This document shows, piece by piece, positions 8,027-64,000 of a DNA stretch of 64,000 nucleotides; positions within the stretch are counted from its first letter, which is position 1; every line of letters starts with the position of its first letter. Made by a program: the position numbers and the translations under genes. This DNA is from a virus. Location of the stretch: positions 1 to 64,000 of the IMG/VR virus record IMGVR_UViG_3300025362_000005; one strand, 5' to 3'. The notes beneath the pieces were generated by a model that saw only the letters and a list, made by a program, of their open reading frames with translations, was not told the origin of the DNA and ran no database searches.

Positions 8027-8371
8027 TTATCTCCTTTTCCATTTTCTAAATTCATGAGAACTCATATGTAAAAAAGACATTTGTAATCGCCTATCTTCTG
8101 CTTGTATTTCTCGTAATTCTTCTTGTAATTCATTTATAGTCTTAATATGTTTTTCTACCCTTTTCTCATCATCTTCTGAATCACGCATTAAATCAGCAAT
8201 AAACTTTGTTTTCTCCCCTGTATTTAATACGATAACATTTTCATCACACCCACAGAACCCTCCACTCCATTGGTGCTTAATCATTATACAAGGGGCATCC
8301 TCATATGCCTTTCGATATTTATCAAACAACTCCACACTTATGGTTACACTTCCATCTACATTTGTTTTCAT
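8027..8371 (-). CDS. hypothetical coiled-coil protein, 114 aa
   Basis: Begins MKTNVDGSVTISVELFDKY. Residues about 65-110 form an E/K/L-rich coiled coil ending HEFRKWKRR. It stands just upstream of the clamp loader, the position where a small clamp-loader subunit could be, but sequence gives no proof. Confidence 0.7.
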   Translation of the reverse strand: MKTNVDGSVTISVELFDKYRKAYEDAPCIMIKHQWSGGFCGCDENVIVLNTGEKTKFIADLMRDSEDDEKRVEKHIKTINELQEELREIQAEDRRLQMSFLHMSSHEFRKWKRR

Positions 8372-8382
8372 ACTTCCTCCTA

Positions 8383-8652
8383 TTAATCTATTAAATCACT
8401 AAAATCTGTCCAATTTTGTGTAATACACAACAGCATCAAATACCCCATCAAATCAGATACATCGTTCTTACGCAATTCACTGCTATTCATAATACGTTTT
8501 AATTTATCATCTAGCCTAATTTTTATTCCCTCTGCACCATCAAGTTTACTAAAACAGGTTAAAGGGTTTGTAGCAGAATTACCGTAGCGTTTGTTTTTCT
8601 CTATCAGCATCTGCATATGTGATTCATATGTCTTGGTTATTATCGCTTTCAA
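8383..8652 (-). CDS. small protein resembling nucleotide-modification-associated domain 1 (DUF1599-like)
   Basis: About 89 aa. The pattern LIEKNKRYGNSATNP, IKIRLDDKLKRIMN and KNDVSDLMGYLMLL matches a small helical phage family with KN.RYG and DD(K)..R...DL..Y motifs. The start is judged to be TTG at 8652 because AGGAGG sits six bases before it; an ATG at 8673 in frame has no usable spacing. Family match is from memory and moderate. Confidence 0.65.
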   Translation of the reverse strand: MKAIITKTYESHMQMLIEKNKRYGNSATNPLTCFSKLDGAEGIKIRLDDKLKRIMNSSELRKNDVSDLMGYLMLLCITQNWTDFSDLID

Positions 8653-8690
8653 TCTCTTCCTCCTCGTATTCATCTTCCATTTCTAGTTCA

Positions 8691-9815
8691 TCATATAGTT
8701 CTGAAGCTGTTAAATCGGGTTTCACCATGTGCCCCCACTATTTGTACCTGCGTTTTAGTAAATAAATCCCAAAAGTAACTTTGTGCAGTAACAGTTGTAT
8801 TATTCAGTTTTTTATATACATACCCCGAATACGGTTTCTTAATAATACGGTTTATATCAGCACGACTCAACCCATACTCTATCACGTGTTCAAATGCTTG
8901 TCCACACACAGTTACATATGCTTGTATAGCTTTTTTAACATTTAAAAAATCATCTGCATATTCAGGAAAATAACTTAAAAACTCTACGTCTTCTCCACTT
9001 TGAAGCAACCCAAGTACCTTCCTAACAGTTAGAACCCCTTCCCCCTTTATATGATGAGCGAGTACGTACTCAGGAGACTTTATTTTAATTCTATTGAAAT
9101 TTTCATCACATACCACATAGCCTTCCTCATCATACCCTAGTTTAGTGCTTGCAGTTATACAATCATCAGCATTGCTAAAAGTATAACTTCGTGGACGATC
9201 AAACCCTAAAACACTTGCACCATCTTCAATACCAGTATAATTAAGTATACGACATAAGAAATACATATTAGTTTCGTCATATGGCACTACTACACGGTTA
9301 TAAACACTTACTATTTCAAAAAGATATGTAGCGTTTTTATTGAATTGCTCAAATATAGGTATCTGATTTGCATAGGTATTTAGCATGTGGTTAGTAACCA
9401 GCTCACCAAAACTATTATACTCCCCTATCTGACTCGGTAAATCACTATCAAAGGCATCTATACATCCACTAGTAGCTATACACCATTTATTGTCGTGGTA
9501 ATAAAAACGGATTAAACTGCCATCTATTTTCTCGGTAATTGTAGCAGAATTCCAATCAATAGCATGTGCTTGGGGTTCGCCTACATTAAAGAAACGATAG
9601 AATCCACGACACACAATATCGTAGGTAACAGCGTTTAAAATCACACCCCTACATTGATTTGTTAAATGACATTTAGGGGAGTTAAACTGATGATATTTCA
9701 GTAATATCAAACCGTTTTTCTCACTTATTTTCATATTGTAATCGTTTCGCAGTACCTCTAATGCATTTTCTACAGTTCTTAAAAATGTTTGCAAGTCATA
9801 ATTATCGTATTTCAT
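8691..9815 (-). CDS. rnlA: T4 Rnl1-like RNA ligase
   Basis: 374 aa. Nucleotidyl-transfer motif I is TEKIDGSLIRFYYH (Lys of KxDGS becomes adenylated), motif IIIa/IV EEGYVVCDEN and motif V RIKIKSPEYV. An N-terminal CRGVIL segment precedes motif I as in Rnl1. It would reseal tRNA cut in the anticodon loop by host defence nucleases after end healing by the kinase/phosphatase encoded immediately upstream in transcription order (9824-10675). Length equals T4 RnlA. Confidence 0.9.
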   Translation of the reverse strand: MKYDNYDLQTFLRTVENALEVLRNDYNMKISEKNGLILLKYHQFNSPKCHLTNQCRGVILNAVTYDIVCRGFYRFFNVGEPQAHAIDWNSATITEKIDGSLIRFYYHDNKWCIATSGCIDAFDSDLPSQIGEYNSFGELVTNHMLNTYANQIPIFEQFNKNATYLFEIVSVYNRVVVPYDETNMYFLCRILNYTGIEDGASVLGFDRPRSYTFSNADDCITASTKLGYDEEGYVVCDENFNRIKIKSPEYVLAHHIKGEGVLTVRKVLGLLQSGEDVEFLSYFPEYADDFLNVKKAIQAYVTVCGQAFEHVIEYGLSRADINRIIKKPYSGYVYKKLNNTTVTAQSYFWDLFTKTQVQIVGAHGETRFNSFRTI

Positions 9816-9823
9816 AAACCCTC

Positions 9824-10675
9824 CTAGAATTCAGTTAAATACATTCGTTGATCAGCGCAAAGCACAGGTAATCCGAGTTTCTTCCACATACGTACAACTG
9901 AAGGACGATCGTCAATAACCATTGTTACATTGTGCTTGTCTTTCACATAGTTTTCATACATTTCTTGTTTCACAACAGTGTCAGGTCGGTTATCTCCTTC
10001 ATCTCTCATGTACAATTCATTGTACTTAATCATGTTCTCATCTAACCACTTTATGGTAGCGTCACGCCCACTTGTGTCTCGTCCACTAAAAAGTATTAAT
10101 GTCTCTTCAGTAACAAGTGCATCAAGTATAGTTGCTATATGCCAATACACAGTGTCTTCCCCTACTTTTGTCATATCATATGGACTACGATTTCCTTTAC
10201 AAGCAAGTGTACCATCTATATCACAGATAACACAGTCATCAAGCTCTTCATCATATTCTACAACAGGTCGTTTATCCATGAACTGATTATAGGTATCTTG
10301 AATAACTTTTGCACCCACACCATTAGCTCTTTTGTTGTCTCTAGTAACACATGTCTGTACCTCTGTAGTAAATACTTCTACATTAAAACTCGCATTACAT
10401 TCATCAGCAATATCTTTCAACACATTGTAATGTTTTTGTGCTAGGTTTGTATCATCAACAACGACGTTATATCCTGTAGTGAGCCAGTGCCTTATAAGCA
10501 TATTTCTAATACGTAACACTTCTTTTTCATTGCCAGTGGTGTAACGCCCTCCATCTACCATAGCACGTAGATCGTCTTTGTTCACTCGCTTCCACTCAGT
10601 TTTTTCACAAAGCTCTTTCGCCATTTTTGTTTTCCCCGATGCTTGTAAGCCCTGTAGCATTAATAATTCTTTCAT
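9824..10675 (-). CDS. polynucleotide 5'-kinase / 3'-phosphatase
   Basis: 283 aa. The N-terminal kinase has P-loop LQGLQASGKTKMAKEL and the DDTNL lid motif. The C-terminal HAD phosphatase has VICDIDGTLACKGN, FSGRDTSGR and MVIDDRPSVV. This is the T4 PseT/Pnkp order. Start ATG at 10675 is chosen over 10690 because GGAGTAGAG is eight bases upstream and it forms an ATGA overlap with the previous gene. It pairs with the RNA ligase to heal and seal cleaved tRNA. Confidence 0.92.
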   Translation of the reverse strand: MKELLMLQGLQASGKTKMAKELCEKTEWKRVNKDDLRAMVDGGRYTTGNEKEVLRIRNMLIRHWLTTGYNVVVDDTNLAQKHYNVLKDIADECNASFNVEVFTTEVQTCVTRDNKRANGVGAKVIQDTYNQFMDKRPVVEYDEELDDCVICDIDGTLACKGNRSPYDMTKVGEDTVYWHIATILDALVTEETLILFSGRDTSGRDATIKWLDENMIKYNELYMRDEGDNRPDTVVKQEMYENYVKDKHNVTMVIDDRPSVVRMWKKLGLPVLCADQRMYLTEF

Positions 10676-11313
10676 ATCTCTACTCCACAAACAGCCCCAC
10701 CAAGATATGTGTAGTATTCAAGTAACTGACTAGGGGTAATTGTACGATCATAACTTAGTTCTAGGCTCCCAAGATGCTGTATACTCTCGTAGTATTTTGT
10801 AATTTTTCTAGGTGGGTACTTTCCCCCCTTGTATATTACTTTGCATCCTAGTAAATCTCGTAATTCTTCATTATTTAAAGGTCTGTATTGTTTAACAGGT
10901 TCTATGTACTCTGCTATAAATTTATAACGCACAGTACCCGTGCTGAATGGGTATGGGCTACTTCTACTTACTCGTAATAACTCAAAAGGTTCTATTTCAC
11001 AAATCCTTTCAAAATCCTCAAGGTAATCACTTCCATATACTTTTTTACCAATTAGCCCTGTTACTCGTTTATCAAGTGGATGACAGATAATGTCTTCTGG
11101 TTTAATATTCACTTCTTTCTCCTTTATTTTTTCTAAATAGACTTCAGCACATACATAAAGCCAATTGCTACACCCTTCTATACCGTAATTAGTAAATATA
11201 TTATGGGGGTGCATACTAACGGTTGTTTCTGTTGATACTATTGTTACTACCGCATTTTCATGCCCCGGCTGTGAACCCACATACCTTACTCTCTCACCTA
11301 TTTCAAACTTCAT
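10672..11313 (-). CDS. KOW/SH3-like two-part protein, 213 aa
   Basis: Begins MKFEIGERVRYVGSQPG, a short SH3/KOW-like strand pattern (G-[ED]-[RK]-V-x-Y-x-G) shared with 11614-12276 and 26585-27679. At about residue 68 the coding sequence contains AAGGAGAAAGAA directly before an in-frame GTG at 11112, so a shorter C-terminal product could be translated separately. Function unknown. Confidence 0.75.
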   Translation of the reverse strand: MKFEIGERVRYVGSQPGHENAVVTIVSTETTVSMHPHNIFTNYGIEGCSNWLYVCAEVYLEKIKEKEVNIKPEDIICHPLDKRVTGLIGKKVYGSDYLEDFERICEIEPFELLRVSRSSPYPFSTGTVRYKFIAEYIEPVKQYRPLNNEELRDLLGCKVIYKGGKYPPRKITKYYESIQHLGSLELSYDRTITPSQLLEYYTYLGGAVCGVEI

Positions 11314-13517: not shown

Positions 13518-13818
13518 GTTTTTTTGTCCTTTTTGTTCTCATAATTTCTACATCGTACTCAAAGTACTTTTGTTGTGCTTTTTCATCTAAAAAATCATAT
13601 AGTATCCCACCTATAATCATGCTACGTGCCATTGACTTAGCAGGTGGCAAATCCTCATATACCTTCTTCCAGTATTCGTCCCATCCACTGTCTTCATATA
13701 TGTTGTATATTTTCATTCTAAAATTATATGCATGACAAACATGACGGCTATAGTTCTGTCTAAAGTGTGTCCACGCTATTACAGACACGGCTAGTGCGAA
13801 ACCAATTACTATTATCAT
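13447..13818 (-). CDS. small membrane-anchored protein, 123 aa
   Basis: Begins MIIVIGFALAVSVIAWTHF, one predicted transmembrane segment, followed by a soluble domain. Its start overlaps the polymerase stop as ATGA. The last 24 residues lie in the overlap with the next gene and look less gene-like than the other frame there. See the A7 frameshift note. Confidence 0.65.
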   Translation of the reverse strand: MIIVIGFALAVSVIAWTHFRQNYSRHVCHAYNFRMKIYNIYEDSGWDEYWKKVYEDLPPAKSMARSMIIGGILYDFLDEKAQQKYFEYDVEIMRTKRTKKLDYIIRLQHRKDITQTGWQSDSC

Positions 13819-16800
13819 CTACTTCGTATTGCTCCCTTTTCAGCCATCTTATTCCATGGCTCTCCTACTTCTGCTTGCTCATATTTTAACTCTAATGGTA
13901 CTATAATCCATTTCCACTCATTAGTCAAGTCCTGTAAACACTCTTTTACAATAATATGAAAAAAGTCTTCTTCAGCAGGTACTACACATGCTACAATAGA
14001 GTCATGTACTTGTCCTGTTAAACGAGTATCCATTTTCAACTCTTTTAATCTCGCATCTATTCTCAAATATAAACTCAATAAACAATGAAAAGCACTACCC
14101 TGTGTTTCAATATTATGTACTTGATTACGAGTACGAAATGTTGTTGACCTAAAACCTGTATTGAAATCTATATACCCTGTTTTCAAATACCGTTTATAGT
14201 TGGCTTCTCTCCATTTACCAAATACCCCAAAGCGTTCTTCCCAAAACACTCGTTCAGCCTCCATCACTAATAACGTATATTGTCTCAACGTCTTATACCC
14301 TTTTGATGCCAAATGGATTTTGCTTTCCTTAGGCATAGTATCCCACAGCGTTTTCGCACAATTCACATAGTACGAACCAAATTGTTGACTAAAGGTAAAG
14401 CCCCCCTTTGTTGCTTGACGTTCCTCTTCTAATAAATCCTTTTCAGTTCTTAAAAATAAATCATAAGCGGTATCAGTATGCATATTGTTTAGTTCAGGAT
14501 GGGCCAAATATTCTAGCATCTGTGGGTCTTTGTGTAAACAAGCCCCTATATTCACTTCTAATGAACTAAAATCCAACTCTTCTAAAAACGTGTTCTTATC
14601 GGGAATAAACGTAGAGCGTATATACCTTTTTGCTGATTTGTTTCGTTTGGGTAAATTTTGGAAGGATATAGCTCCACTCGAAGAATTGTGTACACATATC
14701 TCGTTTGCAAAAAAGTTATGAAATTCTTCTACTTCTATATCGTATACATCTACCACTTTATTTATCCACTCTACATTCGTTATTACATGATTTCCGGGAA
14801 CAAATTCACCAAACTGATTAGCCCATTTTCTGTTGTATTCTATTCCATAAATTTCACATAGTTTTTTTAATTTATAATAATTGTGCCCTATTACTTTACT
14901 TGTATCAGTTAAACCCATAGTTTTTAAATACTTGAGTAACTTATTCTTAGAAATATATCCACCATTTTTGTCATACCTAATCTTTATGACATCATATTTT
15001 ATATTGTATAGTTTTATTGCTCTTTTCATTACATCGTAACTATACTCAGCATGAGTGGGTAGCCCTTTTGCCTTAACCAAAGCACGTATACATTGTATTT
15101 TATTTATCTTAAATCTTGGTACTGGTACATACACAATATCCCTTGCTTTTGGATGTGAGTTATCTGTAGTAAACATCATAGCATCTTTGTCATAAACATA
15201 TTTATCCAGATGTTTGGCAACCCCATGATGATACCCATGTGCTTCCTTTGTTGTTTTCATTAAATTGGTAAATGAGTTGTCTTTATGATTCCAATTCAAA
15301 TGGTGAATCACATCGTCTGTAATTAACTTCTCTTTTGAAAATTGCTCATATATTAATCTATGCTCTATTACACCTTTTCCATGTTTTAGATGCCCTGTAA
15401 AATTTAATTTATCCCCACTGCGAGAACATGATAATGTGCGTGTCTTAGCACTGTGCTTGCTATCTGCTTCTGTTCTGTGGTCTTTATCAAGTAAATGCTG
15501 TGCTTCTACATAGCTTCCGTCTATTAACCTTATTTTATGCTCAGGTGTTACATCAACATACCCACCACCATGTTTCCCACCACCTTTTACACTGTAGTGA
15601 ACACGTACCACTTCCCTGTGTCCAGTCTTCCCCGCCCACAACACTTTTCTTATAGCAGGCTGTTTCGTATCTGAAAAGCAGTAAACATAGGCCCCTTCAC
15701 GTACTTTTTCTATGGGAATACCATCAGGATGTTTTTCATTATCTTTACAAACAAGCACCTTAGTCCCTTCTGCTACGCAAGACCTGAACGTAGGCACTAC
15801 ATTGAAATTAAAACTAGGATGTATGTAATTATCAAGAGTGTTTTTCTGTATACCATCTAAATATGTTGATTTGATCTTCTCCAACTTCCTATATTTTAAT
15901 AACACATCCAAAAACTCTGAGGGCTCAATCTCCCCTAGTTTCTCCAATGCTTCTGCATCTGTTGATGGTTGTTCTTTCTTTGTGAACTTGGTCGGCGTAC
16001 AACCCATGATAGTATATAACAAATGACTTAAATCAGGAGGGGATGCATGATTAAAAGGGGTTGGTTTATCCCATAGGGCTACTTCAGGTGTCTCATACAA
16101 TATCTCATGCATTACCTCTAGTTTTACACCCACTTCTTTGAGATTACGCTCAACAGCTACAACATCTATCTTCATGCCTCTGTACTCTGTGTCAGCAAAT
16201 ACTTTTGTAGCATCCATAAACAATTTAATACCTGTTGCTATATGAGGCATAGTGGCTATAGCTTTCAACTGTGCTTCATATAACCACGCTGTGAACAAAC
16301 TATCGTATGCACAATAGGTGAGTAGTTTATCGGCAATGAGATGTAGCTCCCCTCTTTTCTTATAATAGTAGAGTTGATTAAATGCGTGTATAGTGTCTTC
16401 ATTGGATTCCCATAAATATTTTATGTCGTCATCATACCCTATTATACCAAAATGTAGAAATGACTGGTATTTTAAACTCGTGATGCCTTTAGTGTTATTT
16501 ATACAATGAGCATTTATCATAGTGTCAGCAACAATACCTTCCGGAAAACGTCCTGTCAACGCCTTACTCCATATCATCTCAAATTTAGCATTATGTGCTA
16601 CCTTAGAAGTGTCAGACTGTAAGAACTTGGTCACAATTTCTTTTATCTCAGGAGTAAGCAAAAATACAATAGATTTATGAATCGTGGCTATACTCATACA
16701 AATGACTTCATGACCCTTTCTATAGGGCTGTAGTCCAGTTGCTTCATAGTCAAAAGATTTCACCAATGGACTGTCTATCATTTCTGTTATACCTGCTATA

Positions 16801-17471
16801 ATATCCTTGGTATTACTGAGTATGTGTATTCTTTCATCAGCAAGAGTTTGGTAGTTTACAAAAGAAGTGAAACGTATTGCTTTACGAAATGCCTGCCCCA
16901 TCTTTAATAAAATTACATTGTTTCGCTTCTCTACCACGAAATCATGTACGCTATATGTGGGGTATACAATAGTGGAGCAATCTAACAACGGTATAGCATT
17001 ATTTTCTAGTTTAGCCATTTCTCCGCAAGGTGTACTATTTCCAAAAAGCACAGTCATAGCAGTAACGCCCATAGCTACTACACTTTCAAAATTATGATCG
17101 TTTATGAACGTTTTTAATCTATTCCTACAGACGGGTATCGTAGATTTGTTAAGAACTGAGTGACGGCATTGTATTGCATTTATTACACAAATATCCGAGA
17201 ACTCAATACCTGATGAAACACACAATTCTTTGAGTACTTCTAAGGTTTCTCCACTAGCAACCTTGTGGCGTCTGTCAGCAAGTCTGCTAGGACTATCTAT
17301 AACAACTAACAACTTGCTATTTACATTCCCCATAGGCACCATCTTGGGACTGTCACACTGCTTATAGAGTCCACAACTCTCACAACTATACTCCACTTCT
17401 CTCACGGTTTTAACTGCTTTAGGTTTTACTAGTGTGTCTGTCTCAGGCATTATGTCGAAAAAGCTTTCCAC
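13815..17471 (-). CDS. polA: family A DNA polymerase with UDG-like N-terminus and HNH intein
   Basis: 1218 aa precursor, 853 aa after splicing. Residues about 28-200 resemble a family 4 uracil-DNA glycosylase fold, with Cys at 30, 33, 102 and 115 spaced like its Fe-S ligands. A 3'-5' exonuclease follows (FDYEATGL with D241/E243, HNAKFEMIW, YCAYDSLFTAW). The polymerase domain has motif A LEELDFSSLEVNIG, the O-helix RQATKGGFTFSQQFG and motif C TGQVHDSIV. An intein (residues 565-929) interrupts the TFRS/SSSG.ISFQNLP motif that corresponds to TGRLSS..PNLQN. It acts with the sliding clamp encoded just upstream. Whether the UDG-like domain is catalytic is unclear. Confidence 0.95.
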   Translation of the reverse strand: MESFFDIMPETDTLVKPKAVKTVREVEYSCESCGLYKQCDSPKMVPMGNVNSKLLVVIDSPSRLADRRHKVASGETLEVLKELCVSSGIEFSDICVINAIQCRHSVLNKSTIPVCRNRLKTFINDHNFESVVAMGVTAMTVLFGNSTPCGEMAKLENNAIPLLDCSTIVYPTYSVHDFVVEKRNNVILLKMGQAFRKAIRFTSFVNYQTLADERIHILSNTKDIIAGITEMIDSPLVKSFDYEATGLQPYRKGHEVICMSIATIHKSIVFLLTPEIKEIVTKFLQSDTSKVAHNAKFEMIWSKALTGRFPEGIVADTMINAHCINNTKGITSLKYQSFLHFGIIGYDDDIKYLWESNEDTIHAFNQLYYYKKRGELHLIADKLLTYCAYDSLFTAWLYEAQLKAIATMPHIATGIKLFMDATKVFADTEYRGMKIDVVAVERNLKEVGVKLEVMHEILYETPEVALWDKPTPFNHASPPDLSHLLYTIMGCTPTKFTKKEQPSTDAEALEKLGEIEPSEFLDVLLKYRKLEKIKSTYLDGIQKNTLDNYIHPSFNFNVVPTFRSCVAEGTKVLVCKDNEKHPDGIPIEKVREGAYVYCFSDTKQPAIRKVLWAGKTGHREVVRVHYSVKGGGKHGGGYVDVTPEHKIRLIDGSYVEAQHLLDKDHRTEADSKHSAKTRTLSCSRSGDKLNFTGHLKHGKGVIEHRLIYEQFSKEKLITDDVIHHLNWNHKDNSFTNLMKTTKEAHGYHHGVAKHLDKYVYDKDAMMFTTDNSHPKARDIVYVPVPRFKINKIQCIRALVKAKGLPTHAEYSYDVMKRAIKLYNIKYDVIKIRYDKNGGYISKNKLLKYLKTMGLTDTSKVIGHNYYKLKKLCEIYGIEYNRKWANQFGEFVPGNHVITNVEWINKVVDVYDIEVEEFHNFFANEICVHNSSSGAISFQNLPKRNKSAKRYIRSTFIPDKNTFLEELDFSSLEVNIGACLHKDPQMLEYLAHPELNNMHTDTAYDLFLRTEKDLLEEERQATKGGFTFSQQFGSYYVNCAKTLWDTMPKESKIHLASKGYKTLRQYTLLVMEAERVFWEERFGVFGKWREANYKRYLKTGYIDFNTGFRSTTFRTRNQVHNIETQGSAFHCLLSLYLRIDARLKELKMDTRLTGQVHDSIVACVVPAEEDFFHIIVKECLQDLTNEWKWIIVPLELKYEQAEVGEPWNKMAEKGAIRSR
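14685..15779 (-). mobile_element. PolA intein (365 aa) with HNH homing endonuclease
   Basis: It begins with Cys565 (CVAEGTKVLV), has block B YVDVTPEHKIRL, and ends FFANEICVHN followed by Ser, so it has the Cys1, HN and Ser+1 residues of a class 1 intein. The insert between splicing blocks holds an HNH nuclease (IEHRLIYEQF, VIHHLNWNHKDNSFTNL). Removing the codons joins TFRS to SSSGAISFQNLP exactly at the conserved polymerase motif. Confidence 0.92.
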
Positions 17472-22844: not shown

Positions 22845-22918
22845 AACGCCATAAGAGATTCGAACTCTTACCCTGAGATTGGAAATCTCACATGCTAACC
22901 GTTAAACACCAATGACGC
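22845..22918 (-). tRNA. tRNA-Gly (anticodon UCC)
   Basis: A full cloverleaf can be drawn: 7-bp acceptor GCGTCAT/ATGGCGT, D-arm GTGT/GCAT with a GG-containing loop, anticodon stem TGAGA/TCTCA with loop TTTCCAA, T-stem AAGAG/CTCTT with canonical loop TTCGAAT. CCA is not encoded. Confidence 0.82.
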
Positions 22919-22919
22919 G

Positions 22920-22991
22920 TGGTCGGGCAATTTTGTCAATCTCTCTACGGCTACCCCGAATCTCCTTAGTTCATTTGGGAATGACCCAACC
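22920..22991 (-). other. possible degenerate tRNA between tRNA-Gly and tRNA-Met
   Basis: The 72 bases begin GGTTGGG and end CCCGACCA, a 7-bp acceptor-like pairing with one G-T pair at exactly tRNA length. A weak D-like arm (TTC/GAA) is visible, but no convincing anticodon or T arm could be folded. It is either a decayed tRNA or an odd spacer. Confidence 0.35.
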
Positions 22992-22993
22992 TC

Positions 22994-23064
22994 TAACAGG
23001 AACAGAGTACGATTCTGTATCTACGGGTCTATGAATCCCGTGCTCTACATTGAGCTATCCTGCT
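22994..23064 (-). tRNA. tRNA-Met-like (anticodon CAU)
   Basis: Acceptor AGCAGGA/TCCTGTT (7 bp with one G-T pair), T8A9, D-stem GCTC/GAGC with an unusually short 6-base loop, anticodon stem CGGGA/ACCCG (last pair mismatched) with loop TTCATAG, T-stem ACAGA/TCTGT with a non-canonical loop ATCGTAC. CAU could also read AUA if lysidine-modified. Divergent loops lower confidence. Confidence 0.7.
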
Positions 23065-23070
23065 ATGAAT

Positions 23071-23632
23071 CAGTTTTATCCCACCCACCTATAGAAAGTG
23101 GGACTAACAATACACTGGCATACCGGAAGCCTTATGTTTTTTACATGGGGCGTGTCTACCGCCATAACATTCAAGATTTAAGCCACACCATCCACCGTGT
23201 ACTTGAAACGACCCGTCCATCTTTGGTAGCTTATAACGAAAGCGTTTTTAAACCAACATCTTCAAACGCCCTTTCGGGTAAAGGCTACAGACCCATAGGC
23301 TATGTAGCTCAATCCACTTTGTAGAACCTAACAGCTCATCTAAGCCATTACAACTTTGATTTTGGATTCTATACCTCAAGGACTCTGGTTTGTTCTACAG
23401 TACTATAGTCCCTTTTTCTGCGACTTTAATTGTATGGGGGTGGTAAATTGCTACCCTTATAAAACTCCACCAACACAGCTTCCATACACTGTGGTGGCTT
23501 CAACGTCTACTAAATACAACTAGTGTACTTACTGGAAGTGAGGGCATTGCAGCCCTGTCCTATAAAATCTCAGGCTGTTTTCTCGTGCATTTAACCTTCA
23601 AATGACTTTATAGTCGAAACTATTACACTCCC
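23071..23632 (-). ncRNA. large structured RNA of about 560 nt beside tRNAs, with a 5' tRNA-like domain
   Basis: No convincing minus-strand coding frame is present in this gap. The first 100 bases form a cloverleaf-like fold: GGGAGTG/CACTTCC (23626-23632 with 23534-23540), ATAG/CTAT, CATTT/AAATG with a 7-base loop, AGGGC/GCCCT stacked on the acceptor. Downstream lie CCACCA/TGGTGG (23492-23497 with 23467-23472), TGTAGAAC/GTTCTACA (23392-23399 with 23320-23327), GCTACA/TGTAGC, an 11-bp helix 23264-23276 with 23237-23247 whose loop-side ACCCG also matches CGGGT at 23211-23215 (pseudoknot), and GGGACTA/TAGTCCC joining 23406-23412 to 23100-23106. Size, density of helices and tRNA neighbours recall ROOL/GOLLD-type ornate RNAs; some elements recall tmRNA. 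Class not determined. Confidence 0.6.
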
Positions 23633-23637
23633 TTCTT

Positions 23638-24965: not shown

Positions 24966-25015
24966 AGACTTTATACAGAAAGTTATACAACTATACTACT
25001 TTAGTTATAAAGTCT
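24966..25015. repeat. 10-bp perfect inverted repeat in the ligase-downstream gap
   Basis: AGACTTTATA (24966-24975) and TATAAAGTCT (25006-25015) are perfect complements, with a smaller AAAGT/ACTTT pairing nested inside. It lies directly behind the RNA ligase stop on the minus strand; there is no T-run, so it may be an RNA processing or stabilising hairpin. The rest of 24898-25014 shows nothing else. Confidence 0.6.
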
Positions 25016-26115
25016 CATAGAGTAGCGTTTTTACGCTCAAACTCAACAGCATATTTTCTGCTCTTTGCTTTAAAACCTATGTGCTGATCTGTAGTACTTC
25101 TCCACACCACGCCTTCACGTTTGACGACCTTGCCATTGTTTTTAAACACAGAGTCGCCATCGGCTTCCGCAAGTATTTCTTCAAGTGTTTGTGGTAATTT
25201 ACTAGGGAGTATAAAAGGCACCATTTGCAATTTAGTTATTTCACAGAAACGTATTAAATCATCTACATTGAGTACTTGACCCGTATCCACCTTAGTTACT
25301 TTGTACACAAATAGTTTTTTGTTGGTAAATCCATAGATATTGCCTTGAATACCTGTGCCACAGATTTCACCCTGTATACACCAATTACCTCGTATGTCTT
25401 TTAGGATGGCCTCTATATTTAGTTCACGTCCTAATGTCTCCCATGTACCACCGCCTTTATTATCTCGCATTACATTATGAGAATACACACGGTATTTCCC
25501 CTTAACCAACATATAGCTTACTGCTTGACCCTCTAGTTTCTCTGTTTTGTAGAAAAGAGTGTCACCATAGTTAGCCTTGTATTTATTGAACAGCTTTTGT
25601 ATGTTTGTTTCATCAGATTTCTGCACTGTAGCGGGATAGTTTTTATTCACACGCTTCTTTAAAAACAGTTTTCTGAAAAAGCTATAACGCAATAACATCT
25701 TCATAAATCGTGAACGCTTCTTAGTGCTACTGGTTGCCCTTTCTTTCAGTTCCTCAACATCATACTTTTGTACCCCCAATATTTCAGTGACATCTACCCC
25801 TTCTTTTACCTTCGTGGATTCGGGTAAAATAGATGTATTAAACACAATACCACTGCTGTATTCTCCTGACATTTTCATATTTTTGATGCGAAAGCCTTGG
25901 AAACCCTCACTCCAACACCGTTTTCTTAAAAACTCAAACTCAGGTCTTACAGGTAAAATGGTATCGTATTCACAAAATACTACTAAATCACCTACTTGAA
26001 ACTCATTTTTCCCTACTATTACTGGATAGTTTTCTACTGTTGCAAGCTCAATTCTATCCTTGCCTTCTATAGGGCGCAGTGTTTGTATGACTGCTATTTT
26101 TGCTAAATCTCGCAC
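25015..26115 (-). CDS. RNA ligase, DRB0094 (Rnl5-like) family
   Basis: 366 aa, GTG start at 26115 behind GGGGGATG. The N-terminal OB-like module has the signature PIEGKDRIELATVENYPVIV and VGDLVVFCEYDTILP, typical of the DRB0094 type. The nucleotidyltransferase motif I is YKTEKLEGQAVSY, with IQGEICGTGIQGN (III) and REGVVWR (IV). These ligases seal nicked RNA bearing 5' phosphates. A second RNA ligase besides the Rnl1 type suggests repair of several kinds of RNA damage. Confidence 0.88.
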   Translation of the reverse strand: MRDLAKIAVIQTLRPIEGKDRIELATVENYPVIVGKNEFQVGDLVVFCEYDTILPVRPEFEFLRKRCWSEGFQGFRIKNMKMSGEYSSGIVFNTSILPESTKVKEGVDVTEILGVQKYDVEELKERATSSTKKRSRFMKMLLRYSFFRKLFLKKRVNKNYPATVQKSDETNIQKLFNKYKANYGDTLFYKTEKLEGQAVSYMLVKGKYRVYSHNVMRDNKGGGTWETLGRELNIEAILKDIRGNWCIQGEICGTGIQGNIYGFTNKKLFVYKVTKVDTGQVLNVDDLIRFCEITKLQMVPFILPSKLPQTLEEILAEADGDSVFKNNGKVVKREGVVWRSTTDQHIGFKAKSRKYAVEFERKNATL

Positions 26116-30072: not shown

Positions 30073-31086
30073 TTAGTTAAATAACGTATCCACTATTTTC
30101 TTAGCACTTAACAACCTTTCTAAATATGTGCCTGTAATTATATGACAAGGCATATGTCTCCTCGTGTACATATCTTTTAAAGTACGGTTATTTCGTTCTC
30201 TCTCAGCAACCTCTCCTTGGAATCTTAACCCATCATCTACCCACGGCACATCTGGCTCTAAATATAATATGAGATCAAACTCTTGCTGATCAATAATGTT
30301 CTCAACCACCTTAGAGGTTCTGTCATGATACATTCCCAAATAGTACTGTGTGATAACTGCATCAGAATCAACAAACAATATTTTATTGCTTTCATACGCT
30401 AATTTATTTTGTAGTAGTATATGTTCCATTGCTATTTGTGGAAACATTTCGGTTGTTAGATTGTTTTTATACCGCTTGCAGTAGTCACGTCCGACTTCAT
30501 GACAGTAATTAGTGTAGTAAAGATTAGCAAGCTGTTTTGTTAACGTACTCTTACCACAGCTCTCTGTGCCCACAATAGCTACTTTTTTAGTAAAGAACTG
30601 CCGTGCTGATTTTGTTAAATACTCCCAATTACTGTATATATCTTTTTTTATTTCCGTAGCACTTATGTTTACCGTGTCGCGCCTGCTATCAATTACAATG
30701 TGTTCAGCATTTGGGTAATACTGGGCAAAGAAAGGGGTATAACTGTGTTCTGAACTAAATACATGAGTGATGGGTTCAACTATAATATTCCTTACATCCC
30801 TAGTACCATTTTCCCAATCGTATTCAGACTCATCAGCACTACAGGTATCGACAATTTCCACTACTTCTATGTTTTCAAAATTATTTAGTTCTTCACTTAT
30901 CCATGATTTTCTCGTACTACCCGAAATATACTTAATACCTGCTCGTTCACATAATGCCCGATCTCGTTTTATCGAAGAAATCAATACAACATATAGTTTA
31001 TCCACAAAGTTGCTTGCGTACATTATAGCATATAAATGACCAATATGGAAAGGCAGGAATTTACCACCGATAAAACCTGTTTTCAT
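30073..31086 (-). CDS. nadR: NadR-like NMN adenylyltransferase / ribosylnicotinamide kinase
   Basis: 337 aa. The N-terminal nucleotidyltransferase has GFIGGKFLPFHIGHLYAIM (HxGH) and ISATEIKKDIYSNWEYL (the ISxT motif). The C-terminal kinase has a P-loop VAIVGTESCGKSTLTKQL and VGRDYCKRY. This is the NadR order without the DNA-binding domain. It makes NAD from nicotinamide riboside taken up by the PnuC encoded nearby, which could refill NAD drained by host defence systems (inference). Confidence 0.93.
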   Translation of the reverse strand: MKTGFIGGKFLPFHIGHLYAIMYASNFVDKLYVVLISSIKRDRALCERAGIKYISGSTRKSWISEELNNFENIEVVEIVDTCSADESEYDWENGTRDVRNIIVEPITHVFSSEHSYTPFFAQYYPNAEHIVIDSRRDTVNISATEIKKDIYSNWEYLTKSARQFFTKKVAIVGTESCGKSTLTKQLANLYYTNYCHEVGRDYCKRYKNNLTTEMFPQIAMEHILLQNKLAYESNKILFVDSDAVITQYYLGMYHDRTSKVVENIIDQQEFDLILYLEPDVPWVDDGLRFQGEVAERERNNRTLKDMYTRRHMPCHIITGTYLERLLSAKKIVDTLFN

Positions 31087-31992: not shown

Positions 31993-32754
31993 TTATTTAC
32001 TAGACCCCTTCAGCCAATTAACATAACCATAGGTAGCATTTACTAAAAATGCAATCCACATTAATAAGATTCCTATTGCAAAAAGCCCACCTTCGTTTAT
32101 AACTATGTTAGCCCACATATATACCGTTACCAAATCCACAATTATCCACAAAATCCATTGCTCGGCATATAAATAAGCCATTAATATCATTGCAATAACA
32201 GATAACACGGTACTCATGGAGTCAAAATAAGGAGTTAGTCCCCCCATGGCTTTTAATATAACACCATACCCTATTACACCAATAATAGATACTATTCCCC
32301 ATGTTACTGCACCACGTATACTCAGTCGCTTCATTACTACCGTGTCTTTAGCTTCTACATTCTTTGGAGAAACCCACAAATACCATCCATAAAACTGCAT
32401 AGGTAGAAAATAGAATGCGTTAAGCATAGCATCCCCATATAATCGCCATAAATAAGCAGAATATGCATACGCAATTACATTTATTAACCCAAACACGTAA
32501 TTACTTATACGTCCTTTGGCGACAAGTATTACACACCATATACCTGTTATGCTTGAAACCAGTGCTACCCATGACGCAAGTGCATTTGTGGTATCCCATG
32601 TGAAAATAGATGCCACGAGTATAACTACTGTTGAAACACTTATCCACAGTTTTTCCCATAGTGTCCAATCACGGAAATAGTCTGCAACAGTTACCCCTTT
32701 CTGTGCACGGAAATAATTCTTGCTATTGTCTATAAAATTCCTACATACTTTCAT
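31993..32754 (-). CDS. pnuC: PnuC nicotinamide riboside transporter
   Basis: 253 aa integral membrane protein with about seven transmembrane segments. The family signature SNYVFGLINVIAYAYSAYL followed by WRLYGD, FYLPMQFYGWYLW-like (FYFLPMQFYGWYLW) and QWILWIIVDLVTVYMW contains the substrate-stacking aromatics. It imports nicotinamide riboside for the NadR-like enzyme. Confidence 0.93.
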   Translation of the reverse strand: MKVCRNFIDNSKNYFRAQKGVTVADYFRDWTLWEKLWISVSTVVILVASIFTWDTTNALASWVALVSSITGIWCVILVAKGRISNYVFGLINVIAYAYSAYLWRLYGDAMLNAFYFLPMQFYGWYLWVSPKNVEAKDTVVMKRLSIRGAVTWGIVSIIGVIGYGVILKAMGGLTPYFDSMSTVLSVIAMILMAYLYAEQWILWIIVDLVTVYMWANIVINEGGLFAIGILLMWIAFLVNATYGYVNWLKGSSK

Positions 32755-37901: not shown

Positions 37902-38651
37902 CTAATTCTCCTCTGTATAATTTGCGTAAAACCCTATAAGCTCACGTGCTTCGGGAAAGAACAACTCATGGTCAACACACATACCCACTTTATCTACAGG
38001 TGTGTACAAATATGTACCGTTTTTCCACTGGGGCTCAAGTGTGTGCCAATCACTCCCTTTTTCAAAGCACATGTCAATCATTTGTTGTGTGTTTTTCTTA
38101 TGAAGCTCGCCATGACTGAATAAACTTTGTGCCAACATCTGAATAGAATTACGCTTCCAGTCAATTTGTCGCCAGTAAAAGTAATTAGCTACTTCTTCAC
38201 GTGGAATATTAAATACTCGTGCATCAAAAAGAGCAGGTGGAGGTAAAACGCCCTTTCCTACTATTTCTGGATGTGTTTTTATAAGTTGAGACTCTATATA
38301 TCTAGTGAATTCAGTACTAGCAATAGCACTTGCTACAGATACCATTTTCTGTACATTGTAGTCAAACCACCCCTGTGACCCAAACTTTGTATAATCGCAC
38401 AGCAGTAAACTTATTTCATCTGACTGCGTATAAGCTATGCGTGTGCCCTGTATTTGATTCATTAATACGCGAGTAGTATACGTCATAGCATCTTTTAATA
38501 AATCACTATAAGGTTTATCAAATCCACGTGTGTACGTGTGAAATGCCTTACCATCTAATCTCATGATAACGGGTGTACGTGCGGTTAAAAAGGTTTTAGC
38601 ACGGTTCTCATAGTTGTTCTTCATTCTATTGCCTATGTCGTCTTTCTTCAT
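37902..38651 (-). CDS. tRNA-His guanylyltransferase (Thg1-like)
   Basis: 249 aa, start ATG at 38651 overlapping the upstream stop. Thg1 signatures are PVIMRLDGKAFHTYTRGFDK (metal-binding Asp and RxDG.xF), AYTQSDEISLLL (second metal Asp/Glu), and ALFDARVFNIPREEVANYF followed by WRQIDWKRNSI. Thg1 adds G at tRNA 5' ends, and bacterial/phage forms perform 3'-5' template-dependent repair of 5'-truncated tRNA. It fits the RNA-repair set. Confidence 0.93.
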   Translation of the reverse strand: MKKDDIGNRMKNNYENRAKTFLTARTPVIMRLDGKAFHTYTRGFDKPYSDLLKDAMTYTTRVLMNQIQGTRIAYTQSDEISLLLCDYTKFGSQGWFDYNVQKMVSVASAIASTEFTRYIESQLIKTHPEIVGKGVLPPPALFDARVFNIPREEVANYFYWRQIDWKRNSIQMLAQSLFSHGELHKKNTQQMIDMCFEKGSDWHTLEPQWKNGTYLYTPVDKVGMCVDHELFFPEARELIGFYANYTEEN

Positions 38652-39280
38652 AAAGCTATTCCCAGTGCAATACAAACTGCTAAATATATTGAACCCCCAT
38701 GTGTGTTGCCCCTATGGTTTTCACTCATTTTGGGCATATCAGGGTGGTCGTTAAACCCATGCACATGTTCTTTATAAATTGTTGTTGCTTCATCACATTC
38801 ACCTGTAATACCTTTTTCAGCAAATAAGGTTTTGAAATACTCAATAAGCTTAGATGCTTCAACACAGCAAAACAGTTCATAATCTGCACCATCTAAGAAA
38901 GCTGGTTTAAATCCACCATGATCTTGTATAATCCTGTTCATACGAATTTTAAGAGGAGTAGGTAGATTAGCGATATCAAGTAACCACATTTCTTTCGACA
39001 AATTATATTTATCAAGTTTCTGTTGTGCGTACTTGATTTTCCACTCTTTGCGTTCCCGTGCTATGTCTTCCTCAGTTTTCAGCATAATGATTAGCCCATC
39101 AAGCTTTACCCCCACAACATAACTAGCACCTTGAATCGCTAACTCTACTTCTTGCCCCTCACGCACTTCACCAATAAATTCAACACTAAATCTGGTACTG
39201 CTTGTGGTTGTAATACGCCATCTACTTCCTGATTTCGTAGCTTCTTTTACAAATCCTTCATTTCTCCAATTATATTTCAT
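38648..39280 (-). CDS. hypothetical protein, 210 aa
   Basis: Begins MKYNWRNEGFVKEATKSGS. The N-terminal third is beta-rich, then a basic helix (RERKEWKIKYAQQKLDKY), and a C-terminal segment that resembles small conserved phage domains of unknown role (NRIIQDHGGFKPAFLDGADY). It ends with a short hydrophobic stretch SIYLAVCIALGIAL, a possible membrane anchor. Confidence 0.75.
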   Translation of the reverse strand: MKYNWRNEGFVKEATKSGSRWRITTTSSTRFSVEFIGEVREGQEVELAIQGASYVVGVKLDGLIIMLKTEEDIARERKEWKIKYAQQKLDKYNLSKEMWLLDIANLPTPLKIRMNRIIQDHGGFKPAFLDGADYELFCCVEASKLIEYFKTLFAEKGITGECDEATTIYKEHVHGFNDHPDMPKMSENHRGNTHGGSIYLAVCIALGIAL

Positions 39281-60406: not shown

Positions 60407-63400
60407 ATGGCATTAGATATAAAATTACACCCAAAGCAACTACTCGCACTCAACACACCTGCAACAGAAGTGTTATATGGCGGAGCTGTAGGCGGTGGAA
60501 AAGCATTAGATGTACATACACCTATACTCACTACGTGTGGTTGGAAAACTATGGAGACACTTGTTGTAGGGGACAGGGTATTTGATGAGTTGGGACTTCC
60601 TTGTAATGTAGTAGCTAAATCCAAAGTAGATAAAAAAAGTGCTACGTATGAAGTTGAGTTTGATGGCAACAAAGACAAAGTTGTGGCATGTGATGGACGA
60701 CATCAGTGGAGCACGTTGACACGCACAGATAGAACAGCAAAGATTGAAAGGTTTCCCACTCCTAAAACCACGAATGAAATACGTCATAGTCTAACAGCAG
60801 AACGTGGTAAACGAAACAATCATTCTATACAGGTGACAGAACCCCTACAGTTTGTGGAGAAATTACTTGACATAGACCCTTATATTTTAGGGGTATTTCT
60901 TGGTGGGGGCATGTATGATCGTAAAGCAAAGAAAGGTATGGTTATTACAAGCAAGTGTGCTTCAACAACAACCAATTTAGCTACGTATAAAGGTGGAAAA
61001 TATTACGACAAAGAGCATTGGAAAGACTTACTAAAGATTGTGGGGTTATATGGATTAGAACCACGTGACCATTTTATACCCATAGATTATCAACTTGGTT
61101 CAGTAGCCCAACGCACAGAGTTACTTAAAGGTATGTTAGATGTACGGGGCACTATTTACAGTGATAGTTTTAAGTATAAGCGTTCAGCGGGACAAGTAGA
61201 GATGTATACCGATGGGCAACAGCTCTGTAAAGATGTTCATTTCATGTTGTTGTCACTGGGGCAAAAATCATGGATGTATGAACGAGAAGAGAATAATCGT
61301 AAAAGAAGACCAAGTTGTGCATGGCGTGTACGTGTATATGCTGATATGATATTGTTTAATAGTCGTGATAGGGCCACACAACAACGCCATAGCATGGGTA
61401 GTATTAGAACAGCTCGTCAACGACATTATATTTCTGATGTACGTAAAGTAGAAAAACGTGCGGTACAATGTATACAGGTTGACAGTCCTTCTAATTGTTA
61501 TCTTGCCGGTGAATATTTAATACCTACTCACAATAGTTATTTAATGCGAGTAGCATCTATTGTTTGGGCTATGGAGGTACCGGGCATACAAATATATTTA
61601 TTTAGATTAACACAGAAAGAATTGGATGACAATCACATGGTAGGTAGCGGTGGATATTACACCCTACTTCTTGATGCAGTTCATTCCAAATATGTGAAGA
61701 TAAACAGCTCTAAAAACATTATACAATTTAGGAATGGAAAGCACAATAGTTTTATGGGTGGTTCTATAATTCATTTATGCCATTGTCAGCATGAGGATGA
61801 TAAATACTTATACAAAGGTGCGGAGATGGATGTGCTGATGATTGATGAAGCCACTCACTTTACCCATACAAAATATGAGTATTTGCGAACACGTGTTAGA
61901 CGCCCCAAAGACAATCCACTTCCCGATGCAGTAATAAAAAAATACGGGGAAAAATACTTCCCACGTATATTGCTTGGAACTAATCCGGGCGGTATTTCAC
62001 ATTGTGTAAGATTTGGTAATGTATTGACAACAAAAGGGTTTGTACCTATACAAGATGTTGTTGTTGGTGATATGGTGTTATCTATGAACGCAGACACATT
62101 TGATATTGAACGAAACAAAGTAACAGAAACGTTTGAATATGATTACACAGGAAACATTGTTCATATAGATAATAAAAAGATTAATATAGAGTGTACGCCG
62201 AATCATAGTATTGCTTACATACCTGACCCAAAGAAGAACAAGTATTTTAAGATGAAACCTTTTACTGAACTACCGAATCAAGCAAATGTTGTGAGAGCAG
62301 GGAACAAAATAAAAGGGGGGAGTAGGCGTAGAGTATTTAAAATTGCTGATGAATATCATTTAAAACAACAGAGGGCAAATCAGCCATTAAAGATAAAGTA
62401 TAGAGACTACGCTGAATTAATGGGATGGGTATTATCAGAAGGATTCTTTGTTGCTGATAAAAAGTATGGGTCTCCACGATTTGCTATAGCGCAGAGTAAG
62501 AAGAATACACGGCTTATTATTGAGGACTTGCTAGATAGGTGTGGGTTTACTTATAATTATCATTCACAGGCGTACACAATGTACTCTTATGAGTGGGCAC
62601 ATTATATTAAGCAGTTTGGTAAATGTGAGGACAAATTTATACCACGTGAGTTACTTAATTCCACGGATATTGATGCTGTTTTTACATCGTTGATGTTAGG
62701 TGATGGTCATTGGATAACGGATGAAAGCGGAAATTACTCTACTTACAGCACTAGGCTACGAGACGATGTTATGGAGCTGTGTGTTAAATTAGGATACACA
62801 GTACATTATACAATTCGTCAGCAAGAGGATAGAAGACTTCCTACACAAGTGGTACATTTTCACAAAACGAAACAACCTGTTACTGAAATATTTACGGGGA
62901 ACAAACGATACAAAAATAGAAAAGAAGTTACAGTACATGATAGTAACTGTTCTGAAGAGTACGTAGAAAACGAAAAGATTTATTGTATTGAAGTAGAAAA
63001 TAACCATAACTTCTTCTTAGAACAGAATGGGCATGTATGGTTATCTGGCAATTCGTTTTGGAGACGAGAATTTGTAAAAATAGCTGAACCAATGACGATT
63101 ACGCAGATGCCAAACACGAAAGGCGGTATGTTACGACAGTTTATACCCGCACAATTATCTGACAATCCTTCAATAGACAAAGAAGAGTATGAGGGCAAGG
63201 TAATGGGTGTCGGTAATGAAGCCACGGTACGTATGTTGCTTGAAGGTGATTGGGACGCAGTTGCAGGTGGAATGTTTGATGATGTATGGGATGAAACCGT
63301 GCATATGATACCGCCATTTGAAATTCCTTATACATGGTATTGTGACCGATCTTTTGATTGGGGACACACAGACCCGTTTAGTGTTGGTTGGTGGGCTCAG

Positions 63401-64000
63401 TCAGATGGTAGTTCAGTAAAATTGGCTGACACCGTAGCAGAAGATGGTACAGTAGTAAAAGGAGAAACAGTAGTATTTCCAAAAGGTAGTTTATTTCGTA
63501 TAGCAGAATGGTATGGATGGACAGGTGAAGAAAATATCGGCATAGGACTTACTGCCTATGAGATTGGGCAAGGTATTGCTAAAATGGAAAGAACAAATGA
63601 TGTATTGAAAAACATTGAGAAGATAGTGCCGGGCCCCGGAGATCATCAGGTATGGAATAACAGCCCCAAGCAGGACTCTAGTTACCGTTCACTTATTCAT
63701 GAATTAAACTCAGGGTATTATGGAAATGACCACTATATGCTGTTTGATATATTCACAAAAGCAGATCAAACAGCGGGTAGTCGTCCACGAGGATGGGACA
63801 TATTAAGGACTCACTTGAAAAATTCTGTAAATTATCCTAAGATAGATAGACCATGTTTATTTGTGTTCAACACATGCCCTACACCAAATAGGATATTACC
63901 GACATTAATCAGACATGATAAGAAGATTGAGGATATCGCAGACCATCTTGAAGATCACGTTGCGGATGAAATAAGATATCGAGTACAGCACTCTGTACAT
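60407..64000 (+). CDS. terL: terminase large subunit with two inteins (3' end beyond the window)
   Basis: ATG at 60407 after AAGGA; open for 1198 codons to the window end. Extein parts: Walker A YGGAVGGGK + SYLMR (split by intein 1), Walker B DVLMIDEATHF, coupling motif LLGTNPGGISH + SFWRREF (split by intein 2), and nuclease motif RSFDWGHTDPFSVGWW with its first catalytic Asp. It is the packaging ATPase and nuclease and must be spliced to work. At least 504 extein residues are present. C-terminal nuclease motifs may lie outside. Confidence 0.95.
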   Translation, partial: MALDIKLHPKQLLALNTPATEVLYGGAVGGGKALDVHTPILTTCGWKTMETLVVGDRVFDELGLPCNVVAKSKVDKKSATYEVEFDGNKDKVVACDGRHQWSTLTRTDRTAKIERFPTPKTTNEIRHSLTAERGKRNNHSIQVTEPLQFVEKLLDIDPYILGVFLGGGMYDRKAKKGMVITSKCASTTTNLATYKGGKYYDKEHWKDLLKIVGLYGLEPRDHFIPIDYQLGSVAQRTELLKGMLDVRGTIYSDSFKYKRSAGQVEMYTDGQQLCKDVHFMLLSLGQKSWMYEREENNRKRRPSCAWRVRVYADMILFNSRDRATQQRHSMGSIRTARQRHYISDVRKVEKRAVQCIQVDSPSNCYLAGEYLIPTHNSYLMRVASIVWAMEVPGIQIYLFRLTQKELDDNHMVGSGGYYTLLLDAVHSKYVKINSSKNIIQFRNGKHNSFMGGSIIHLCHCQHEDDKYLYKGAEMDVLMIDEATHFTHTKYEYLRTRVRRPKDNPLPDAVIKKYGEKYFPRILLGTNPGGISHCVRFGNVLTTKGFVPIQDVVVGDMVLSMNADTFDIERNKVTETFEYDYTGNIVHIDNKKINIECTPNHSIAYIPDPKKNKYFKMKPFTELPNQANVVRAGNKIKGGSRRRVFKIADEYHLKQQRANQPLKIKYRDYAELMGWVLSEGFFVADKKYGSPRFAIAQSKKNTRLIIEDLLDRCGFTYNYHSQAYTMYSYEWAHYIKQFGKCEDKFIPRELLNSTDIDAVFTSLMLGDGHWITDESGNYSTYSTRLRDDVMELCVKLGYTVHYTIRQQEDRRLPTQVVHFHKTKQPVTEIFTGNKRYKNRKEVTVHDSNCSEEYVENEKIYCIEVENNHNFFLEQNGHVWLSGNSFWRREFVKIAEPMTITQMPNTKGGMLRQFIPAQLSDNPSIDKEEYEGKVMGVGNEATVRMLLEGDWDAVAGGMFDDVWDETVHMIPPFEIPYTWYCDRSFDWGHTDPFSVGWWAQSDGSSVKLADTVAEDGTVVKGETVVFPKGSLFRIAEWYGWTGEENIGIGLTAYEIGQGIAKMERTNDVLKNIEKIVPGPGDHQVWNNSPKQDSSYRSLIHELNSGYYGNDHYMLFDIFTKADQTAGSRPRGWDILRTHLKNSVNYPKIDRPCLFVFNTCPTPNRILPTLIRHDKKIEDIADHLEDHVADEIRYRVQHSVH
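60503..61534 (+). mobile_element. TerL intein 1 (344 aa), class 3-like, in Walker A
   Basis: Residues 33-376. It starts with Ala (ALDVHTPILT), not Cys or Ser. Block B CDGRHQWSTL has Trp, block F AVQCIQVDSP has Cys, block G PTHN has Thr before HN, and +1 is Ser: the WCT set of class 3 inteins. The LAGLIDADG-like motifs read ILGVFLGGGMY and LLKGMLDVRGTI, missing key acidic residues, so the endonuclease is probably inactive. Confidence 0.9.
62003..63052 (+). mobile_element. TerL intein 2 (350 aa) with LAGLIDADG endonuclease
   Basis: Residues 533-882. Starts CVRFGNVLTTKGFVPI, ends HVWLSGN followed by Ser (Gly in place of the penultimate His). Endonuclease motifs ELMGWVLSEGFF and FTSLMLGDGHW keep acidic residues, so it may be active. 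Confidence 0.92.

Follow-up and report, generated by a model that had tools for sequence, protein, structure and literature searches.

The window analysed here comprises 64,000 nucleotides of a 90,240-base virus record (IMG/VR record IMGVR_UViG_3300025362_000005) and codes for phage replication and structural genes, plus an RNA repair kit consisting of an Rnl1-type RNA ligase, Pnkp, a second RNA ligase and Thg1 (Table 1). Within the window, a minus-strand array runs from the RNAs of a non-coding gap, which form its 5' part, through tRNA-Met and a conserved 74-nt RNA to tRNA-Gly, with the gap directly abutting tRNA-Met on its upstream side. No convincing gene was found on the minus strand of 23066-23637, as an earlier sequence-only reading of the locus had stated, and the longest stop-to-stop frames in this interval span 48 codons on the minus strand and 83 on the plus strand. 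Intron-aware ARAGORN called only the two tRNAs in the region, together with one further intron-type tRNA elsewhere in the window (60715-60990). Apart from the array, the window holds genes for a NadR-like ATPase and an NMN transporter (PnuC; 30073-31086 and 31993-32754), possibly a NAD salvage pair, as well as an intein-like insert in a family A DNA polymerase (13815-17471; weak Pfam intein match) and, judged by eye, intein-like inserts in a terminase-like frame (60407-64000).

Table 1. Features of the array and the RNA repair kit (window positions; L191 and L206 positions belong to the phages G781 and G786, respectively).
Feature	Position	Strand	Remarks
Rnl1-type RNA ligase	8691-9815		RNA repair kit
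Pnkp	9824-10690		RNA repair kit
tRNA-Gly (TCC)	22845-22918	minus	ARAGORN and Rfam
Conserved element, ~74 nt	22919-22992	minus	Counterparts L191:8759-8832, L206:10706-10781
tRNA-Met (CAT)	22993-23065	minus	ARAGORN and Rfam
Remainder of array	23071-23404	minus	No family; ordinary stability
35-nt piece	23190-23224	minus	Recurs in G781 array, L191:9463-9497
Drum-like RNA domain	23405-23508	minus	Rfam RF02958 and model R1
Drum-like parts: P1 AGAC/GUUU, conserved GUUGAA, P2 hairpin, GGAG, ACC		minus	
Pseudoknot GUAUGG/CCAUAC	23487-23482 with 23437-23432	minus	In drum-like domain
Hairpin AAGTACA/TGTATTT	23512-23530	minus	Just ahead of drum-like domain; weak fold
Compact tmRNA-like tRNA domain, no mRNA part	23533-23632	minus	Plan shared with G781 and G786; fold z
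Acceptor, 7 bp, GGGAGTG/CACTTCC	23632-23626 with 23540-23534	minus	In tmRNA-like domain
GTTTCGAC	23620-23613	minus	In tmRNA-like domain
P2, 10 bp	23613-23604 with 23569-23560	minus	In tmRNA-like domain
T-arm-like hairpin, loop TGCAAT	23556-23541	minus	T-stem AGGGC/GCCCT
A73	23533	minus	In tmRNA-like domain
Second RNA ligase	25015-26115		RNA repair kit
Thg1	37902-38675		RNA repair kit

The gap had been read as one large folded RNA resembling ROOL and GOLLD. Folding of the whole region yielded a z-score of -0.64, with 25 of 100 shuffles being equally stable, and the z-scores of 120-nt sub-windows ranged from -1.8 to +1.2, most of them not beyond shuffles. Comparative support for the proposed long-range 7-bp closing helix was absent, and a covariance search with the ROOL, GOLLD and tmRNA models returned no match in the region up to E = 10, leaving size and tRNA neighbours as the extent of the resemblance. 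When all Rfam models were run on the region, one family matched, namely drum (RF02958). A row of separate minus-strand RNA modules describes the gap better than one big RNA does, and the more general proposal, that non-coding RNA is encoded here next to the phage's tRNAs, was supported.

The strongest identity in the region, overlooked by the sequence-only reading, is that of the drum-like RNA. RF02958 matched the window with 31 bits (E 6e-4 to 1.2e-3, the lower value from a 575-base search), below its 43-bit gathering score. Genome contigs and 391 genomes belonging to a single class served as the source of drum RNAs; we aligned 22 of these RNAs and built a model (R1) on the 22, leaving out the window sequence as well as the pseudoknot described below. 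With R1, the window's score was 39 bits (E 9e-7), whereas the second-best match in the 90-kb phage reached 16 bits and falls within a capsid gene, as does the drum-tail match at L115:2992 (window's phage), which was dismissed. In the alignment, the P2 loop pairs with a segment located four bases past the conserved ACC; the structure line printed with the Rfam match does not include this pseudoknot. Two-sided changes were present at all six of its pairs, and 90.9% of cells were paired in the pseudoknot helix (90.3% overall), compared to 64.9% in shuffles and 35-47% in slid versions. The window shows P1, P2, GUUGAA, GGAG and ACC, and its loop-to-3' pseudoknot, already suspected from the sequence alone, forms 6/6 pairs with the identical 4-nt spacing past ACC, which is expected by chance with a probability of about 0.0025. 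At the 3' end, the family tail is CGAAAGAAAA and that of the window GCAGAAAAA; both the tail and P3 (~4 bp) are weak. Since the pseudoknot is intact even though it lies outside the R1 score, and in view of the R1 match itself, 23508-23405 is very likely a divergent homologue of drum with a diverged 3' end. The hairpin just ahead of this domain has a counterpart at the equivalent place in bacterial drum loci, as indicated by sequence comparison. A strict drum-core scan of IMG/VR returned mostly chance matches and one true drum, located at a contig end.

The first 100 bases of the gap had been taken for a tRNA-like domain composed of acceptor, D, anticodon and T arms. Such a domain is real and was placed correctly: a strict cloverleaf search reported 23632-23534 as its sole match in the region (any match in 6 out of 200 shuffles), and the fold z-score is -2.87, with 2 out of 200 shuffles performing as well. 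The predicted fold, however, has the topology of a tmRNA and not the D-arm-bearing one of a tRNA. The minimum-energy structure consists of the 7-bp acceptor, an unpaired GUUUCGA, a 10-bp stem and the T arm, and along the sequence GGGAGTG is followed by five bases, GTTTCGAC, the 10-bp P2, the T-stem, CACTTCC and A. The acceptor holds G3·U70, with GUUUCGAC 12 nt on. As in tmRNA, GNUUCGAC stands behind the acceptor, a D stem is absent and P2 comes next; the earlier remark that GTTTCGAC recalls tmRNA was right, and the relatives described below confirm a tmRNA-like tRNA domain. U33, a GG D loop, UUCRA and a tRNA-grade model score are all missing, in agreement with the previous judgement that this is not a normal tRNA. 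Departures from tmRNA are the T loop, which is UGCAAU in the window instead of UUCRA (TTCGA and TTCAA in the relatives), and the lack of an mRNA-like part with its tag frame and its pseudoknots, the domain closing within 99 nt. ARAGORN called no tmRNA, and the Rfam tmRNA model (RF00023) did not match the window at E values of up to 10, short of its gathering score.

Two further, distantly related phages carry related modules. G781 (70,851 bases) was reached via capsid-protein relatives at 55% identity, and G786, retrieved with the RNA ligase as query, has an RNA ligase and the 74-nt element in common, its ligase region showing no synteny with the window's phage. No close relative of the window's phage was found: in protein-based searches of viral contigs, neither the helicase nor the 109-aa neighbour retrieved any relatives, and distant DNA searches of phage and plasmid collections returned no homologue of the region or of the 74-nt element. 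Whole-array alignments to the relatives with lax gaps were not significant. In G781, Rfam reports a tmRNA match of 54.1 bits (gathering 47) at L191:12221-12298, spanning about 79 bases (GGGGTAAAATTGGTTTCGAC...GTGGGTTCGATTCCCACTTGCTCCA). It stands alone between genes, ~2.9 kb off the tRNA array (L191:12221 vs 9370); in G786, the domain lies within the array (L206:10932-10855). All three phages share a tRNA-like acceptor with 7/7 pairing, G3·U70 and A73, as in tmRNA, and the 12-nt offset to GNNTCGAC, and in each of them acceptor, P2 and T stem pair throughout, using different bases. Searching for this plan within 120 bases or less yielded these three phages only in ~1.7 Mb scanned on both strands (~3.4 Mb) and no match in 27 Mb of random sequence; as the plan was composed after the sequences had been seen, these counts are descriptive, and the G781 case stands on Rfam by itself. 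Together, the comparisons show that 23632-23533 is a tmRNA-like tRNA domain lacking the message part. Because its UUCRA T loop is lost and its P2 loop is long, the window's copy may be decayed.

The 74-nt element is 84-88% identical to its counterparts in G781 and G786, with an invariant core, GGGGTAGCCGTAGAGAGATTGACAAAATTGCCC, and lies within a few nt of a tRNA in all three phages; it belongs to no Rfam family. The 35-nt piece is identical to G781 at 28 of 35 positions, as good a match arising in 1 of 500 shuffles, and its pattern occurs a single time in IMG/VR, in G781. Furthermore, an abiF RNA (RF03085; L191:8115-8151) lies in the G781 array; its score is 46.6 bits, above the gathering value of 37, and its outer stem is compensated. 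The 70.8-kb record of this phage yielded no Abi_2 gene. The window has no abiF RNA, and neither G781 nor G786 has a drum match. Equivalent arrays in two phages hence carry different RNAs that are, by family assignment, of antitoxin type, with the toxin gene absent from the records, which may be incomplete. Several other observations were made in these genomes. tRNA-like units with long inserts, missed by default ARAGORN, lie at L191:7962-8087 and 8130-8760 and at L206:10850-11330, and the G781 array includes a tRNA-Gln(ctg) bearing a 46-base insert. The G786 and G781 arrays have in common a 37-nt piece that includes a GTCAGCCATAGANNGAC hairpin (L206:11264-11228 and L191:9389-9425) and was not seen in the window. 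TnpB-type genes are found in the window's phage (L115:7513-8730) and in G781 (L191:10442-11623), the latter with a RAGATH-18 RNA match just downstream (L191:11667-11728).

We know of no function for drum RNA. At 17 of 26 drum loci (Clostridia; L082-L103, L111, L113), the RNA is followed, after 45-87 nt, by a PBECR4-type ribonuclease gene in the same orientation, and at most loci a T run between the two suggests a terminator; at the other nine, PBECR4 was not nearby. All nine downstream proteins tested matched Pfam PBECR4. Among the 391 genomes, 19 have drum, 29 have PBECR4 and 15 have both, against ~1.4 expected, and PBECR4 genes obtained from a separate protein search are preceded by drum or a weaker relative. 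PADLOC and PDB gave no match for PBECR4, and its AlphaFold model is of low confidence (pLDDT 51). The layout equals that of ToxIN and AbiF, in which an RNA antitoxin precedes the ribonuclease gene (PMC12373285), and gene order, the sole basis for this assignment, points to drum as a candidate RNA antitoxin of PBECR4. The type III toxin-antitoxin order of RNA, terminator and endoribonuclease gene is present for drum in Clostridia but not in the phage record, 90 kb in which no PBECR4 gene was found. Alternatively, drum could be a cis attenuator; abiF RNA does both, combining neutralisation with cis attenuation. To our knowledge, drum and PBECR4 have not been recognised as a toxin-antitoxin pairing before, and our search of open-access literature, which covers part of the journals, returned no publication that connects the two.

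In our preferred reading, which we give an even chance of being right, the locus is a phage cassette of host-RNA mimics for counter-defence; the homologies are observed, and the function is proposed from them. The phage RNAs would mimic host RNAs, silencing host toxins and competing with host tmRNA, by analogy to pseudo-ToxI of phage phiTE and the coding-free tmRNA of phage DS6A, the two precedents with which this reading was drawn. Carrying no PBECR4 gene of its own, the phage might use the drum-like RNA to bind and silence such a toxin of the host, an orphan state that is paralleled by the abiF RNA of G781. The tmRNA-like piece, given G3·U70 and A73, would be charged with alanine and could vie with the tmRNA of the host for access to SmpB, EF-Tu and stalled ribosomes. 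The modules may be exchanged singly between related phages. A more specific version, which we put forward tentatively and hold to be somewhat less probable, describes a lineage-wide cassette beside tRNAs, in which a message-free tmRNA blocks ribosome rescue, swappable orphan antitoxins (drum here, abiF in a relative) disarm RNA-guarded toxins and drum is the antitoxin of PBECR4.

Foremost among the rival explanations is that RNA genes were captured from hosts and have decayed: host-derived copies of tmRNA, drum and tRNAs would be lying functionless in a phage tRNA island. Damaged genes are frequent in phage tRNA islands, and the degenerate T loop of the tmRNA-like piece, the weak drum-like tail and the 3' 330 nt, which are not unusually structured, all fit such an origin. 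Decay would, however, hardly preserve full pairing of acceptor, P2 and T stem from differing bases in three phages, retain G3·U70 and A73, keep the drum-like pseudoknot intact and leave the 74-nt element as similar as it is although the capsid proteins are only 55% identical, and we regard this explanation as rather unlikely. We also considered it unlikely, and more so, that the array is part of a tRNA-operon precursor in which the extra RNAs guide processing of the tRNAs or stabilise them, with drum acting as a cis element. In G781 and G786, the modules do lie in alternation with tRNAs, and the 74-nt element keeps its place a few nt from tRNAs in the three phages, but both drum and abiF occur as stand-alone RNAs ahead of toxin genes, and the tmRNA-like RNA of G781 is solitary between genes.

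The cassette of mimics also accounts for the locus better than two readings that had been suggested from the sequence. A single large ornate RNA, either ROOL/GOLLD-like or a new class of this kind, would agree in size and in its place beside phage tRNAs with reports on these RNAs (PMC12286853); the silence of the models up to E = 10, an overall fold no better than shuffles and the separation of the modules in the relatives, where the tmRNA-like domain is either kilobases away from the array or inside it, make it very improbable. A working tmRNA encoding the tag AEKGTIVL (frame 23395-23421) would explain both GTTTCGAC and the tRNA-like domain, yet the 3' strand of the acceptor (23540-23534) shuts the domain ahead of this frame, the frame sits inside the drum-like 3' tail (GCAGAAAAAGG) and the relatives' versions, at 77-78 nt, could not accommodate it; we found no support for the tag frame and consider a working tmRNA barely credible.

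If the cassette reading holds, phage tRNA islands would be a hunting ground for RNA inhibitors of host systems, and orphan RNA families of unknown function located in such islands may point to new toxin-antitoxin pairs. The findings suggest that these islands may hide anti-defence RNAs missed by gene finders and default tRNA tools, and a phage may jam host rescue and defence systems via look-alikes of host RNAs. For drum RNA, in turn, a role emerges that can be tested directly, namely that of antitoxin to PBECR4 ribonucleases. Each part of this picture has a known precedent; what appears to be new is how they are combined, the presence of drum-like and abiF RNAs as orphans in the tRNA arrays of phages and the link between drum and PBECR4.

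Compared to known systems, the locus shares with ROOL and GOLLD a position in phages close to tRNAs and a length of several hundred nt, but it matches neither model in sequence or structure. With drum (RF02958), the window domain has P1, P2, GUUGAA/GGAG/ACC and the pseudoknot spacing in common, and differs in scoring below gathering, in its divergent 3' tail, in having no PBECR4 downstream and in residing in a phage tRNA array. According to PMC11915505, which cites Mao et al. 2009, the coding-free tmRNA of Mycobacterium phage DS6A is likewise a phage-borne tmRNA-like tRNA domain without an mRNA part, and in E. coli it reportedly inhibits the endogenous tmRNA; here, in contrast, the domain has a degenerate T loop and shares its array with tRNAs and a drum-like RNA. 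Pseudo-ToxI of phiTE sets the precedent for a phage RNA that mimics an antitoxin (PMC3475682) and, like the window's RNA, resembles a host RNA antitoxin with the toxin gene absent, although other RNA and toxin families are involved and the phiTE case was tested by experiment. The abiF RNA, which neutralises AbiF in trans (PMC12373285), is an antitoxin-type RNA too and an orphan in the G781 array, with a sequence unrelated to the window's drum-like RNA. Phage tRNAs that evade defence systems (PMC11555353) belong to the same theme.
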